Of a DNA stretch of 21,652 bases, positions 2,781-14,275 are shown one piece after another (position 1 is the stretch's first letter; every line of letters starts with the position of its first letter). The stretch is from a virus. The position numbers and the translations under genes were made by a program. The stretch spans positions 1 through 21,652 of IMG/VR virus record IMGVR_UViG_3300010939_000073, one strand, 5' to 3'. Below the pieces are notes generated by a model. That model ran no database searches. It saw nothing but the letters and a program-made list of their open reading frames with translations, and was not told the DNA's origin.

Positions 2781-2963
2781 TTGAGACTGTAGCTAAACCA
2801 GTATTTATTAAATCGGAAGTTAAATAGAGCTGTTGGGTTTAGGTGGGGGGAGGGGTACTGCACCAGTATGGCCAGTCCCTTGGGGTATAAGTGTGAAACC
2901 TATATTGCCACAGACATACACCTTAATTTAGTGATTTGCAAACCGGTAATGAGGAGAATAGAT

Positions 2964-3037
2964 TTGGCCAGAGTTCGGGAGAAGAACGACAGGTTGTGGT
3001 CCTGTAGGCACGAGTGCGAATCTCGTTGGTCAACCCA
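2964..3037 (+). tRNA. tRNA-His(GTG)-like gene, degenerate core
   Basis: A full cloverleaf can be folded: acceptor TTGGCCA/TGGTCAA (7 bp, one G-U), D-stem GTTC/GAAC, anticodon stem ACAGG/CCTGT with loop TTGTGGT (anticodon GTG at 2996-2998), 4-base variable loop, T-stem ACGAG/CTCGT with loop TGCGAAT, discriminator C and encoded CCA. C73 fits histidine tRNAs. Unusual bases: position 8 is G not U, 14 is G not A, 55 is G not U, and the -1 base is T rather than the G expected for tRNA-His. It may be a decayed or specialised tRNA. It ends 4 bases before the next start codon. Confidence 0.7.
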
Positions 3038-3041
3038 TATT

Positions 3042-3191
3042 ATGAAAAACAGTCTTGCTGAACGACTTTTAAAACTTGCAGCCAAGCTATATTATTATGC
3101 TTCCAAAGAAGGGAACCATCCTGTTTCTAAAGAGACAGCCTTTCAACGTATGAAGGCGGTGGCGAAGAGTGATGAGGACTTAGAGTTCTAA
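3042..3191 (+). CDS. Small MKNxLxERLL-type protein (49 aa)
   Basis: ATG at 3042 gives 49 residues beginning MKNSLAERLLKLAAKLYYYA, a Leu-rich helix, then a charged tail. The same frame is open back to 2868, but that part overlaps the tRNA; the N-terminus at 3042 also matches the next gene (MKNDLIERLL), supporting this start. There is no Shine-Dalgarno, since the ATG is only 4 bases after the tRNA CCA; tRNA 3' processing would leave a nearly leaderless message. It is coupled by TAATG to the following gene. Function unknown. Confidence 0.55.
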   Translation: MKNSLAERLLKLAAKLYYYASKEGNHPVSKETAFQRMKAVAKSDEDLEF

Positions 3192-4700: not shown

Positions 4701-4789
4701 ATGTCTTTTTACAAGATAATTGGATTCTATTTTTGGTTCTTATAGTTGCGGGGTTAGGGGCCATATATTATGACAGAAGGGATCGATAA
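4697..4789 (+). CDS. One-helix membrane micro-protein (30 aa)
   Basis: ATG 4697 overlaps the previous stop (ATGA), with GGAGGA at 4682-4687 upstream. 30 residues: MNVFLQDNW, a hydrophobic helix (about 9-25) and a positively charged end YYDRRDR, so likely N-out/C-in in the inner membrane. Coupled by TAATG to another one-helix peptide. It has a frameshifted paralogue at 4062-4146. Candidate pinholin, holin regulator or other membrane-active peptide. Confidence 0.6.
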   Translation: MNVFLQDNWILFLVLIVAGLGAIYYDRRDR

Positions 4790-4869
4790 TGTGGGCTGCG
4801 GTTATAGTACCTTTTCTTTATTTAACGATTTGTTTAGTTTTTATTCGTTATGCGGGGAGAAACCGATAA
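4789..4869 (+). CDS. One-helix membrane micro-protein (26 aa)
   Basis: ATG 4789 in a TAATG overlap; 26 residues, hydrophobic from about 3 to 19 (AAVIVPFLYLTICLVFI) followed by basic RYAGRNR. Stops in another TAATG. Same topology as the preceding micro-protein. Too short for any homology judgement; the coupling at both ends is the main support. Confidence 0.5.
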   Translation: MWAAVIVPFLYLTICLVFIRYAGRNR

Positions 4870-11194: not shown

Positions 11195-11231
11195 ACGCTT
11201 ACGTACTCTCTGCTGTATAAAAGAGAAGCGT
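11195..11231 (+). promoter_or_regulatory. Hairpin in scaffold gene leader
   Basis: ACGCTT (11195-11200) pairs with AAGCGT (11226-11231), continued inside by CTCT (11206-11209) with AGAG (11222-11225) across a 5-base bulge. It stands 4 bases before the AAGGAG of the scaffold gene. It could stabilise mRNA or gate the ribosome binding site; no T-run follows, so it is not a terminator. Confidence 0.45.
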
Positions 11232-11246
11232 TAAAAGGAGATCATA

Positions 11247-12263
11247 ATGGCTAAAGCACCTACAGTACCGATTGTAACACCACCGACAATACCACCGACA
11301 ATACCACCGACAATACCACCGACAATACCACCGACAATACCACCGACAATACCACCGACAATACCACCGACATCAGCCGGTAATGCTGGGTCCAAAGACG
11401 GAAAGCCGGTTTTAAAAGACGTTAAAATTCTAAATACGCCGGCCAACAAAGAAGCAGCCGATAAGATTAAAACTGAAACTTCCAAAGAGAAAGAAGTAAT
11501 TCGCAAGATTAAAATTGGTGAAATAGAATATGATGAATTGGTTCTTGCCAAGATGATCGAAAAATCGAAAGGGGCCGATAAAAAGTTCTTAGAGGCTGCC
11601 AAGACTCGTAAAGAAGCGTTTCGAGTTTTTAAAATGGCCAAAGAGAACCCTCATGAGTTCCTTAAAAGAACCGGTCACGATCCGAAAAAGTTTTCATACG
11701 ATGAGGTTGCAAAAGATATTCAAGATAAACTTCGTGATCCTCGTGAGGTAGAACTAGAGGCCGCAAAGAAACGGCTTGATGAATTTGAGAAAGAAAAGGC
11801 CACTCGTAGACAAACTGAAAAGGATGCAAAAACAGCCCAAGAAGCTAAAGCGTTAGAACAACGCTTCCATAGTGAGATTATAGAAGCTCTAGAAGCGACA
11901 CCTTCAATTCCTAAAAACGGATTCAGCGTTGCTAAAATTGCAAGGTACATTGATACGGTTCGGGATAAAACCGGCGTTCTTTTAAATGCTAAAGAAGTGA
12001 TCGGTGTTATTGATAAAGATATCCGGTCTGAGGTGTCTGGAATTCTTAAGGGGGCGACAGCCGAGCAGATCATAGAATTAGTTGGTGCGGAAGGTATTGA
12101 AGCAATCCGGCAGTATCACTTGACGAAACCCAAAGATCCGCTTGCAGGAAATGATGGTCAGGAAACAAAACCTGATGGTAAGTTTAAACCTAGACGCTGG
12201 GGTACGAGTCATGAGTTCTGGAAGACTATTGATGTAGCCGCTAAAGAAGAGAGGGGTGAATAA
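11247..12263 (+). CDS. Probable scaffolding protein
   Basis: 338 residues from ATG 11247, with AAGGAG upstream. After MAKAPTVPIVT comes a PPTI repeat (residues 12-43), then a long Lys/Glu-rich, mostly helical protein (about 60-290) and a basic C-terminus KFKPRRWGTSHEFW. The position between portal and major capsid, the size (P22 scaffold about 303) and the charged helical make-up fit a scaffold that directs prohead assembly and exits through the portal. No protease signature. Sequence similarity to known scaffolds was not tested. Confidence 0.65.
   Translation: MAKAPTVPIVTPPTIPPTIPPTIPPTIPPTIPPTIPPTIPPTSAGNAGSKDGKPVLKDVKILNTPANKEAADKIKTETSKEKEVIRKIKIGEIEYDELVLAKMIEKSKGADKKFLEAAKTRKEAFRVFKMAKENPHEFLKRTGHDPKKFSYDEVAKDIQDKLRDPREVELEAAKKRLDEFEKEKATRRQTEKDAKTAQEAKALEQRFHSEIIEALEATPSIPKNGFSVAKIARYIDTVRDKTGVLLNAKEVIGVIDKDIRSEVSGILKGATAEQIIELVGAEGIEAIRQYHLTKPKDPLAGNDGQETKPDGKFKPRRWGTSHEFWKTIDVAAKEERGE
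11280..11375 (+). repeat. Eight 12-bp tandem repeats encoding PPTI
   Basis: Eight consecutive units of CCACCGACAATA, the last ending in TCA, encode PPTI x7 then PPTS. Units are almost identical at the base level, so copy number probably changes by slippage. The product segment is an extended polyproline-type linker at the scaffold N-terminus. Confidence 0.95.
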
Positions 12264-12265
12264 TC

Positions 12266-12460
12266 ATGGGCGATCAAACTACGGTTGAACCTAAAATCAT
12301 AGAAGCGTTTTATATTGTCCCTAAATCTGGTGGCTTTCAAACTCATAAAGTTACCATTAAAGACGGTGACGTTTATAGTGATAAGCTTTTTGGCGATCTT
12401 GATGCTTGGGATCCAGTTATGAATTCATTGGAATATGAGTTAAGTAGCCGGTTTCAATAA
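12266..12460 (+). CDS. Small acidic hypothetical protein (64 aa)
   Basis: ATG 12266 starts 2 bases after the scaffold stop, with GAGGGGTGA upstream. 64 residues, acidic, beta-rich first half (AFYIVPKSGGFQTHKVTIKDGDVYSD) and helical end. No family recognised. It may be a head accessory protein, going by its place between scaffold and capsid genes. Confidence 0.65.
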   Translation: MGDQTTVEPKIIEAFYIVPKSGGFQTHKVTIKDGDVYSDKLFGDLDAWDPVMNSLEYELSSRFQ

Positions 12461-12534: not shown

Positions 12535-12610
12535 CGCAGAATGGAGTAATGGTTAACTCGCGAGGCTCATAATCTCGAAACCGACGGTTCGATTCCGTCT
12601 TCTGCTACCA
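12535..12610 (+). tRNA. tRNA with CAU anticodon (Met-type, initiator-like features)
   Basis: Complete cloverleaf with encoded CCA: acceptor CGCAGAA/TTCTGCT in which only position 1 (C) and 72 (T) fail to pair, T8, D-stem GAGT/ACTC with GG in the loop, anticodon stem CGAGG/TCTCG, loop CTCATAA (CAT at 12568-12570), 5-base variable loop, T-stem GACGG/CCGTC with loop TTCGATT, discriminator A. The 1-72 mismatch and A11-U24 pair recall bacterial initiator tRNA, but the three G-C pairs of the initiator anticodon stem are missing. It could also be an elongator Met or, if lysidine-modified, Ile tRNA. Confidence 0.93.
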
Positions 12611-12639
12611 TTTATAGCCGATAGTTTATTATAAACCAT

Positions 12640-12797
12640 TGGCCATACGGACTGATCTCCCGTATGGCCAGCCATATAATTACGCCAAAGATTTCGGTAC
12701 CTCCCCGCGGGGGGATGAAATCGCCTTTGTACAGAGGTAATTCCCGCCCCATTTAAAATCCACCTACCCCTTTCGTTGGGATGGTCGGTCTCGAAAG
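12640..12797 (+). ncRNA. Candidate structured RNA after the tRNA
   Basis: Successive hairpins: a perfect 11-bp stem TGGCCATACGG/CCGTATGGCCA (12640-12650 with 12660-12670, 9-base loop); GATTTC/GAAATC (12690-12695 with 12717-12722) enclosing TCCCC/GGGGA (12702-12706 with 12711-12715); and CTTTCG/CGAAAG (12770-12775 with 12792-12797). No T-run follows the first stem. No start codon with ribosome binding site is found on the plus strand here. It does not match an RNA family I recognise. It could be part of a tRNA-containing transcript or a long capsid leader. Confidence 0.5.
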
Positions 12798-12883
12798 AGT
12801 GCAGCAAAATGATGTATCTAAAATGATAATCGACGGTGCAAAACAGTTAACGGCACACCTAATCCCTAGCCATTGAATTATAC

Positions 12884-12921
12884 ATTATAACATCTAATGA
12901 TTATGTATTATAACATCTAAT
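12884..12921. repeat. Direct repeat pair ATTATAACATCTAAT
   Basis: Exact 15-base copies at 12884-12898 and 12907-12921, spaced 23 bp, located about 100 bases before the capsid gene. They contain TATAA-like sequence and could be tandem -10 elements or binding sites; no matching -35 at 17 bases is seen. Confidence 0.55.
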
Positions 12922-12925
12922 CATC

Positions 12926-12977
12926 CAGTCTATATACATTAGACTGTATAAAATAATTCTATGCGTTTACACGCATA
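12926..12977 (+). promoter_or_regulatory. Two hairpins in the capsid gene leader
   Basis: CAGTCTA/TAGACTG (12926-12932 with 12940-12946) and TATGCGT/ACGCATA (12960-12966 with 12971-12977, TTAC loop) are both perfect 7-bp stems. The second ends about 5 bases before AAGGAG of the capsid gene, the same placement as the hairpin before the scaffold gene. Possible 5' mRNA stabiliser or translational control for a highly expressed gene. Confidence 0.5.
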
Positions 12978-12997
12978 ATACTCTAAGGAGACTTTCT

Positions 12998-14275
12998 ATG
13001 GCCGCAACTATTCCCTCGTCTATTATCGGAGACTTTAAAGAACGATATAATACGAAGGGTATTCAGGACGCAATTCCTGAGTCCCGCGTATTACTAAAAA
13101 ATGTGGAGTTTGATAAGGCTACCCTTGTCGGGAATGCTTTTCACACGCCTGTAATCCTTTCAGATGAAGCTGGCTTCACCTACGCTGCAAATAACGCCGG
13201 AAACTATGCTTTAAATGGTCCGGTTAGCTTGAACGTGCCAGACGCTCAAGTTCGTCCTGCTCAAATCACTCTCGTTTCCCAGATTGCGTATGATGCTCTT
13301 TCGCAATCCCTTGGAAGCGGTGCTGCTTTTTTGTCAGCGACGAAACTGATAACCAAACGGATGATCGATTCTATGTCCAAGCGTGTTGAGCTTGCTGCTC
13401 TTTACGGGGGCGTAGGTCTCGCTAAATCAGCTCTTACCGGTTCTTCTAATACAGATGCTACGACCCAAGTTATTGCTTTCACACAAGCAACTTGGTCTGA
13501 TGGTATTTGGGCCGGTACTGTGAATAACGAAGTTCAGTTTTACGATGGAACGACACTTATTTCCTCGGGTGCTGATAGTGTGTTCACAGTCTCTGCTGTT
13601 GATCCGACCGCTCGAACCTTAACTGTTACGGGAACGGCTACCGGCATTACTGCTCTTGATGCCGCAACTGTTGGTATTCCTGTGACACTGGATGTTTATT
13701 TCAACTCCGCCTTTGGAAATGAAATGACTGGTATCGACCAAATCCTTACTAATACTGGGACTCTCTTCAACATCTCAGCTGCGACCTATGACCTTTGGAA
13801 ATCAAACGTCATTGATAATTCAGCCGGTAAATTGACCTTTCTTGCCCTTCAAAACGCAGTTGCAACTGCGGTTGGTCGTGGATTGGACAGTGAAGTTGAT
13901 GTATTGGTGAATCCTAAAGTATGGGCGAATCTTGTGACCTCCCAAAGTGGTGCTCGTCGACTTGATTCTTCCTACAAGAAGAACAACGTCGAGAACGGTG
14001 CTACCAAACTGACGTTTTATTCTCAGAATGGTACCATGAACATCACTCCCAGCTTGTATGTGAAAGAAGGGGATTGCTTCATTCTTCCCTTTGAGCACAT
14101 CCAGCGCATTGGATCGATGGACATTGAGTTCATGCCTCAAGTTATGGGTTCTGATGAATTCTTTCAATACGTTCCTGGTTTTAACGCTTATGAATTGCGT
14201 CTGTGGACCAATCAACAGATCTTCATTACGTTGCCGGCTCGTTGCGCAAAGATACATAACATCAGTCTAGTTTAA
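12998..14275 (+). CDS. Major capsid protein
   Basis: 425 residues from ATG 12998, preceded by AAGGAGA. Size equals that of the P22 coat protein (430). The N-terminal arm (1-60), a helix LITKRMIDSMSKRVELAALYGG (about 117-138) like the HK97-fold spine helix, a Thr/Val-rich beta insertion (about 150-245) and a C-terminal domain with ENGATKLTFYSQNGTMNI and YELRLWTNQQIFI fit an HK97-fold coat with an inserted domain. Codon use looks more regular than in its neighbours and it has its own leader and terminator, as expected for the most abundant virion protein. Call rests on position, size and pattern. Confidence 0.85.
   Translation: MAATIPSSIIGDFKERYNTKGIQDAIPESRVLLKNVEFDKATLVGNAFHTPVILSDEAGFTYAANNAGNYALNGPVSLNVPDAQVRPAQITLVSQIAYDALSQSLGSGAAFLSATKLITKRMIDSMSKRVELAALYGGVGLAKSALTGSSNTDATTQVIAFTQATWSDGIWAGTVNNEVQFYDGTTLISSGADSVFTVSAVDPTARTLTVTGTATGITALDAATVGIPVTLDVYFNSAFGNEMTGIDQILTNTGTLFNISAATYDLWKSNVIDNSAGKLTFLALQNAVATAVGRGLDSEVDVLVNPKVWANLVTSQSGARRLDSSYKKNNVENGATKLTFYSQNGTMNITPSLYVKEGDCFILPFEHIQRIGSMDIEFMPQVMGSDEFFQYVPGFNAYELRLWTNQQIFITLPARCAKIHNISLV

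Follow-up and report, generated by a model that had tools for sequence, protein, structure and literature searches.

A conserved leader RNA element at the capsid gene of uncultivated tailed phages, and a hairpin that it has in common with the scaffold-like gene

The scaffolding protein of phage P22 regulates itself post-transcriptionally, in that unassembled scaffold lowers its own translation. MS2-type RNA phages carry a coat-protein operator hairpin at a ribosome-binding site, with a bulged A and a tetraloop. To our knowledge, the proportion of scaffold to coat in tailed phages is mostly unexplained at the RNA level, and a hairpin that is common to exactly two shell mRNAs and is kept by compensatory changes, as described below, is a small and concrete target for this question.

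The sequence analyzed here, called the window in its entirety, is the 21,652-base IMG/VR virus contig IMGVR_UViG_3300010939_000073, in which the portal (8344), scaffold-like (11247), and capsid (12998) genes follow one another in this order. The portal is of the P22 type (Pfam PF16510). A capsid search of IMG/VR yielded 12 relatives with best-segment identities of 83 to 93%, and a portal search contributed two more (L050 and L062). Among named phages, blastn and tblastn gave no DNA match, and the one distant capsid match (25%) was to a Silvanigrella phage; a capsid search of genome contigs gave no match. The carriers, tailed phages with a P22-like portal, belong to one uncultivated clade. The features of the window that surround the gap before the capsid gene are as follows.

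11201 to 11231, + strand: hairpin S, ACG-UAC-UCUC(loop)GAGA-AG-CGU, with UAAAAGGAG right after it
11247 to 12263, + strand: scaffold-like protein of 338 aa, named from its position and predicted shape only
12266 to 12460, + strand: 64-aa protein with a predicted beta-beta-beta-alpha fold, encoded between the scaffold-like gene and the tRNA; candidate regulator
12535 to 12610, + strand: tRNA-Met (CAT), found with ARAGORN and Rfam, adjoining the gap on its 5' side; optional among relatives
12998 to 14275, + strand: major capsid protein (phrog_14242, major head protein, E 9e-10)

By analogy, the self-regulation of the P22 scaffold is the closest functional precedent for this locus. The order of portal, scaffold-like, and capsid genes and the portal type are those of P22, and the proposed post-transcriptional site likewise lies at the scaffold start. 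In contrast to P22, the motif described here is also found in the capsid leader, the regulation is proposed from sequence, and Pfam, PHROG, and a fold search did not significantly relate the scaffold-like protein to any known scaffolding protein. Like the MS2 operator, the hairpin at the scaffold-like gene is short, stands at a ribosome-binding site, and has conserved unpaired adenines, but the phage is a double-stranded DNA phage, what is kept is an asymmetric internal loop in place of the bulged A and tetraloop, two genes share the hairpin, and the proteins are unrelated.

Between the end of the tRNA-Met gene at 12610 and the capsid ORF start at 12998 lie 387 bases, in agreement with an earlier note on this DNA that had described a non-coding gap of some 390 bases before the capsid gene. 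The gap is non-coding: the only listed ORF that enters it is an 84-aa antisense ORF with a TTG start that spans the tRNA, and its conserved part, element E, is 79 to 127 nt long in 13 sequences, is often not a multiple of three, and has stops in most frames. The several hairpins (12640-12670, 12690-12737, 12924-12949, and 12959-12978) and the direct repeat (12877-12922) that the earlier note had pointed out are present among the features of the gap.

12640 to 12670, + strand: perfect 11-bp stem-loop, lineage-specific, without a U run after it; relatives have other stems
12690 to 12747, + strand: element Q, a proposed pseudoknot (GATTTC 12690-12695 with GAAATC 12717-12722; hairpin 12724-12737; GCGGG 12707-12711 with CCCGC 12743-12747)
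12690 to 12722 and 12724 to 12737, + strand: stem pair, part of element Q
12752 to 12866, + strand: element E, about 110 nt, made up of the linker TTTAAAATC, P1, P2, P3, and a CTAA tail
12762 to 12785, + strand: P1, ACC-UAC-CCC(loop)GGG-AU-GGU, the hairpin in common with the scaffold-like leader
12790 to 12799, + strand: P2, CUC-GAAA-GAG
12835 to 12859, + strand: P3, GGUG...CACC
12867 to 12997, + strand: A+T-rich spacer that contains the tandem repeat, two hairpins, and the SD of the capsid gene (AAGGAG, 12985-12990)
12877 to 12922, + strand: tandem direct repeat of 23 nt, two copies, 87% identical
12924 to 12949 and 12959 to 12978, + strand: hairpins within the spacer before the capsid gene

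The fold of the gap (12611-12997) was more stable than the folds of shuffled sequences on both the + strand (z = -3.96) and the - strand (z = -3.66). The first hairpin (12636-12690, z = -4.4) and the spacer (12867-12997, z = -3.3 in one calculation and -3.8 in another) account for this excess, element E being ordinary (z = +0.3). The showiest hairpins and the repeat fall outside the conserved part. The spacer of the window is structured and 131 nt long, whereas those of 12 relatives are 60 to 79 nt long, with z about 0, A+T-rich, and mostly unstructured; because they are A+T-rich and unstructured, the capsid SD is free in the relatives. Leaders are mostly dissimilar between relatives both in the spacer and in the tRNA-adjacent part. 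Thus, of the claim that the gap is structured, it stands that the hairpins are real and that the fold beats shuffles, but most of the hairpins and the repeat on which the claim was built are absent from relatives. A conserved RNA within a gap can have ordinary folding energy while showy hairpins are lineage-specific, and the fold z-score, by which element E is ordinary, was rejected as a criterion.

No intrinsic terminator was recognized on the + strand of 12611-12997, where no G+C-rich stem is followed by a U run; two are found, on the - strand only. Known self-cleaving ribozymes were likewise rejected, with no Rfam match.

Element E is found just 5' of the capsid start in 14/14 readable capsid leaders (13 relatives and the window), L050 being counted among them though its leader stops at the contig end, and it usually opens with (A)TTTAAA(A/G)TC. 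The outer stem of P1 (ACC/GGU in the window) is followed by an asymmetric internal loop, whose 5' strand has three bases (UAC, CAC, or UAA) and whose 3' strand has two (AU or AC), and then by an inner stem that varies. Of the 12 sequences scored for P2, 9 have a loop of the GNRA type, the exceptions being L005, L007, and L011; L006 and L012 are without a clear P2. P3 takes the compensated forms GGCG/CGCC, AAUG/CAUU, and GGGUU/AACCC in relatives. In parses made by hand, and hence biased towards pairing, 73 of 79 helix cells of the capsid-leader P1 were paired (shuffle maximum, 62), as were 53/53 cells of P2 (shuffle maximum, 44) and 53/53 cells of P3 (shuffle maximum, 50); three loop strings in these parses are off by one base, which leaves the paired cells unaffected. 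An automatic scan that used no hand alignment detected P1-type hairpins in 13 of the 14 capsid leaders, compared with 1.5 expected from dinucleotide shuffles, the remaining leader being that of L004, whose P1 was parsed by hand.

At the level of sequence comparison, P1, P2, and P3 are backed by compensatory changes. Conservation and covariation, whose absence the earlier note had named as speaking against its reading, were thus both found, element E being kept with compensatory changes in every readable relative. The reading of the gap as a capsid mRNA leader with a regulatory role is accordingly supported for 12752-12866, the rest being mostly lineage-specific. A search of 12611-12997 and its surrounds against Rfam 15 at the gathering level matched tRNAs alone, and a relaxed search (E up to 10) added chance-like sub-threshold matches, none of them over element E. 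IMG/VR was also scanned with DNA patterns that represented P3 or the 5' half of the element, and the matches were in this clade only or due to chance. Element E is an RNA family new to Rfam; leader and operator RNAs of phages are, as a kind, already known. It resembles the structured RNAs of bacteria and metagenomes found by comparative genomics (PMC2864571, for example) in being a conserved structured RNA detected by covariation, and it differs in that no Rfam family matches it.

A P1-type hairpin also stands before the scaffold-like gene at 11247, where the earlier note had missed it. The S motif is located immediately 5' of the scaffold-like SD in 16/16 genomes whose sequence includes that start; in L050, for example, it reads ACC-CAC-CCGC..GCGG-AC-GGU-UAAAAGGAG. 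When S and P1, likewise parsed by hand, were pooled (30 hairpins, 16 from scaffold leaders and 14 from capsid leaders), 168 of 175 helix cells were paired, with a shuffle maximum of 128. Two opposite adenines of the internal loop are invariant in all 30 hairpins of both sites, and the loop positions that adjoin the outer stem are, in most copies, U..U or C..C. A covariance model built from 7 scaffold leaders only found the P1 of the window at 18.4 bits, its sole match in the window at E<=0.15, and its best held-out matches were one scaffold leader and, after it, P1 in the capsid leaders of L062, the window, L002, and L007. Scanning 348 kb of clade contigs for SD-adjacent hairpins with the A/A pair gave 17, of which 15 are at scaffold-like genes, while each of 15 other letter pairs put in place of A/A gave 0 to 6. 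The merged S and P1 covariance model found no further sites on these phage contigs (~350 kb). Searched in IMG/VR and in 84,980 species genomes of bacteria and archaea, the S-motif pattern had paired copies only in this clade, its matches elsewhere having just 0 to 1 inner pairs. The Silvanigrella phage has a short, A-rich capsid leader, and a P1-type hairpin is absent near its capsid start.

Our preferred explanation, to which we assign a probability of roughly 0.55, is that element E is a cis-regulatory capsid leader and that P1/S is an operator common to the scaffold-like and capsid mRNAs. The occurrence of the P1 hairpin at both leaders suggests that one factor controls both shell-building proteins. 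A post-transcriptional operator common to both genes is in keeping with S lying on the SD, with the copy in the capsid leader, and with the absence of the hairpin from other genes. S and P1 would then most likely be copies of one such operator, with an internal loop that one trans-acting ligand would read. This ligand would most likely be a phage assembly protein, the candidates being the scaffold-like protein itself and the 64-aa protein encoded between both genes. At the scaffold-like gene, binding beside the SD would block 30S loading, and at the capsid gene binding at P1 may tune stability or translation, with the outcome that scaffold and capsid output would be matched. That the element acts as RNA in the cell, that the ligand is a protein, the identity of this ligand, and the sign of the effect are all points that we infer. 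P1 lies about 150 to 240 nt 5' of the capsid start, in leaders whose last part is A-rich and unstructured in relatives; because it is distant from the capsid SD, simple occlusion is impossible at the capsid gene. Since internal-loop letters differ between the two sites within one genome (UAA/AU and CAC/AC in L004, for example), any ligand must tolerate variation. The weakness of the S and P1 hairpins and the ordinary folding energy of element E are points against an operator. S is not part of the predicted minimum-energy fold in the window.

The internal loop could alternatively be a variant GAAA 11-nt tetraloop receptor, docking a GNRA loop (either that of P2 within element E or one in trans) without a dedicated protein. 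Element E would in this case fold compactly and either shield the capsid mRNA at its 5' end or present the region where its coding sequence starts. The likeness to the known receptor (PMC11381326 and PMC3494683) lies in the CC-UA..A-GG loop. The sequence CCUAAG..CAUGG, present in S of L004 and L008 and in element E of L009, is one base off the receptor CCUAAG..UAUGG, and the conserved letters of P1/S fit receptor U3, A4, and A8, with position 9 varying; in the known receptor, position 9 is flipped out and C is tolerated there (PMC11381326). The exact CCUAAG..UAUGG with its A-A platform was found in none of the 30 hairpins, which mostly read CCUAC..AUGG (CCUAAG..CAUGG in 3/30), so that most copies have a C at the second platform A, position 5, and the CAC/AC and UAC/AG forms depart from the receptor as well. 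The GNRA loop on P2 in 9/12 sequences could supply a docking partner, but that partner is inconsistent: the receptor-like loop is kept in the three relatives with a P2 of another loop type and in the two without a clear P2, and the S hairpins have no neighboring GNRA hairpin. We regard docking of this sort as unlikely.

The sequence 5' of element E, to which it is joined by TTTAAA, is exchangeable among relatives. A tRNA precedes element E in 6 of 14 capsid leaders, the relatives having Met, Met plus Asn, Asn, or none at this site. In 7 of 14 leaders (L002, L005, L007, L009, L011, L012, and L062), a stem-loop ending in (C)ACAA replaces the tRNA. L010 has neither, but a stem-loop and element Q. 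Where a tRNA is present, a stem-loop and element Q (window) or a further stem (L008) may lie between it and element E. Element Q is found elsewhere only in L010 (about 4739-4805) and its near copy L025; in L010, the pairs, read by eye, are kept through changes (GCGAG/CTCGC, and CT..AG for CC..GG), and element Q is probably a pseudoknot. The (C)ACAA stem-loops look like mimics of a tRNA 3' end. A block 5' of the tRNAs, GGGAAGTCCCTTAGATTTCCCCAACGTCCAGGGTGATGACGC..CTCACCC, is common to L004 (4571-4665) and L008 (4570-4665), with similar pieces in L006 and L011, and another block, CTGTGGGTGAG..AGGTTGATCGCT..CGTTAA, is common to L012 and L050.

Processing of the gap RNA together with the tRNA, as the earlier note had suggested, is therefore possible in some of these phages and not general to the clade. 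The hairpins may be a site of mRNA processing or stability that a host or phage nuclease recognizes, with the tRNA or stem-loop marking a new 5' end. The swapping of tRNAs for unrelated stems is as expected of a processing roadblock. We nevertheless consider this improbable, and less probable than tetraloop docking, since it is an internal loop that is constrained and not a single-stranded cleavage motif, and the stems of S and P1 are much shorter than those of typical RNase III sites. Slightly less probable still is that element E is excised with the preceding tRNA or stem-loop as a free small RNA with a role in trans, for example in assembly or packaging like prohead RNA. Here the tRNA ending in CCA or the (C)ACAA stem-loop, followed by TTTAAA, that usually precedes element E does resemble a processing junction, but in the scaffold leader the copy of the hairpin is placed right at the SD, which fits a role in cis, element E is always beside the capsid start, from which a short A+T-rich spacer separates it, and its length varies strongly (79 to 127 nt).

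For the shared operator on the scaffold-like and capsid mRNAs, a more specific form can be proposed, namely a two-gene assembly feedback in which one assembly protein would read the hairpin on both mRNAs and set their ratio during shell building; we hold this tentatively, at somewhat below even odds. The scaffold-like gene is conserved in 14 genomes, and its product, which has no Pfam or PHROG match and no significant match in a fold search, is predicted to have a disordered Pro-rich N terminus, long helices, and a C-terminal helix (pLDDT 66). The 64-aa protein is also conserved in relatives and gave no significant match in a fold search, and for neither candidate regulator did the fold searches return a known RNA-binding fold.

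The start of the scaffold-like ORF in the window (11280-11390) is a run of PPTI repeats (PPTIPPTIPPTI...) that is absent in relatives. A second tRNA gene (His, GTG) at 2964-3037 of the window, distant from the capsid region, overlaps a predicted ORF at 2868-3191. In L011 (4349-5000) and L012 (5142-5763), the capsid gene is split near codon 46 by about 620 to 650 bases; the insert of L011 contains an HNH-like ORF and is perhaps a group I intron or a homing insert.
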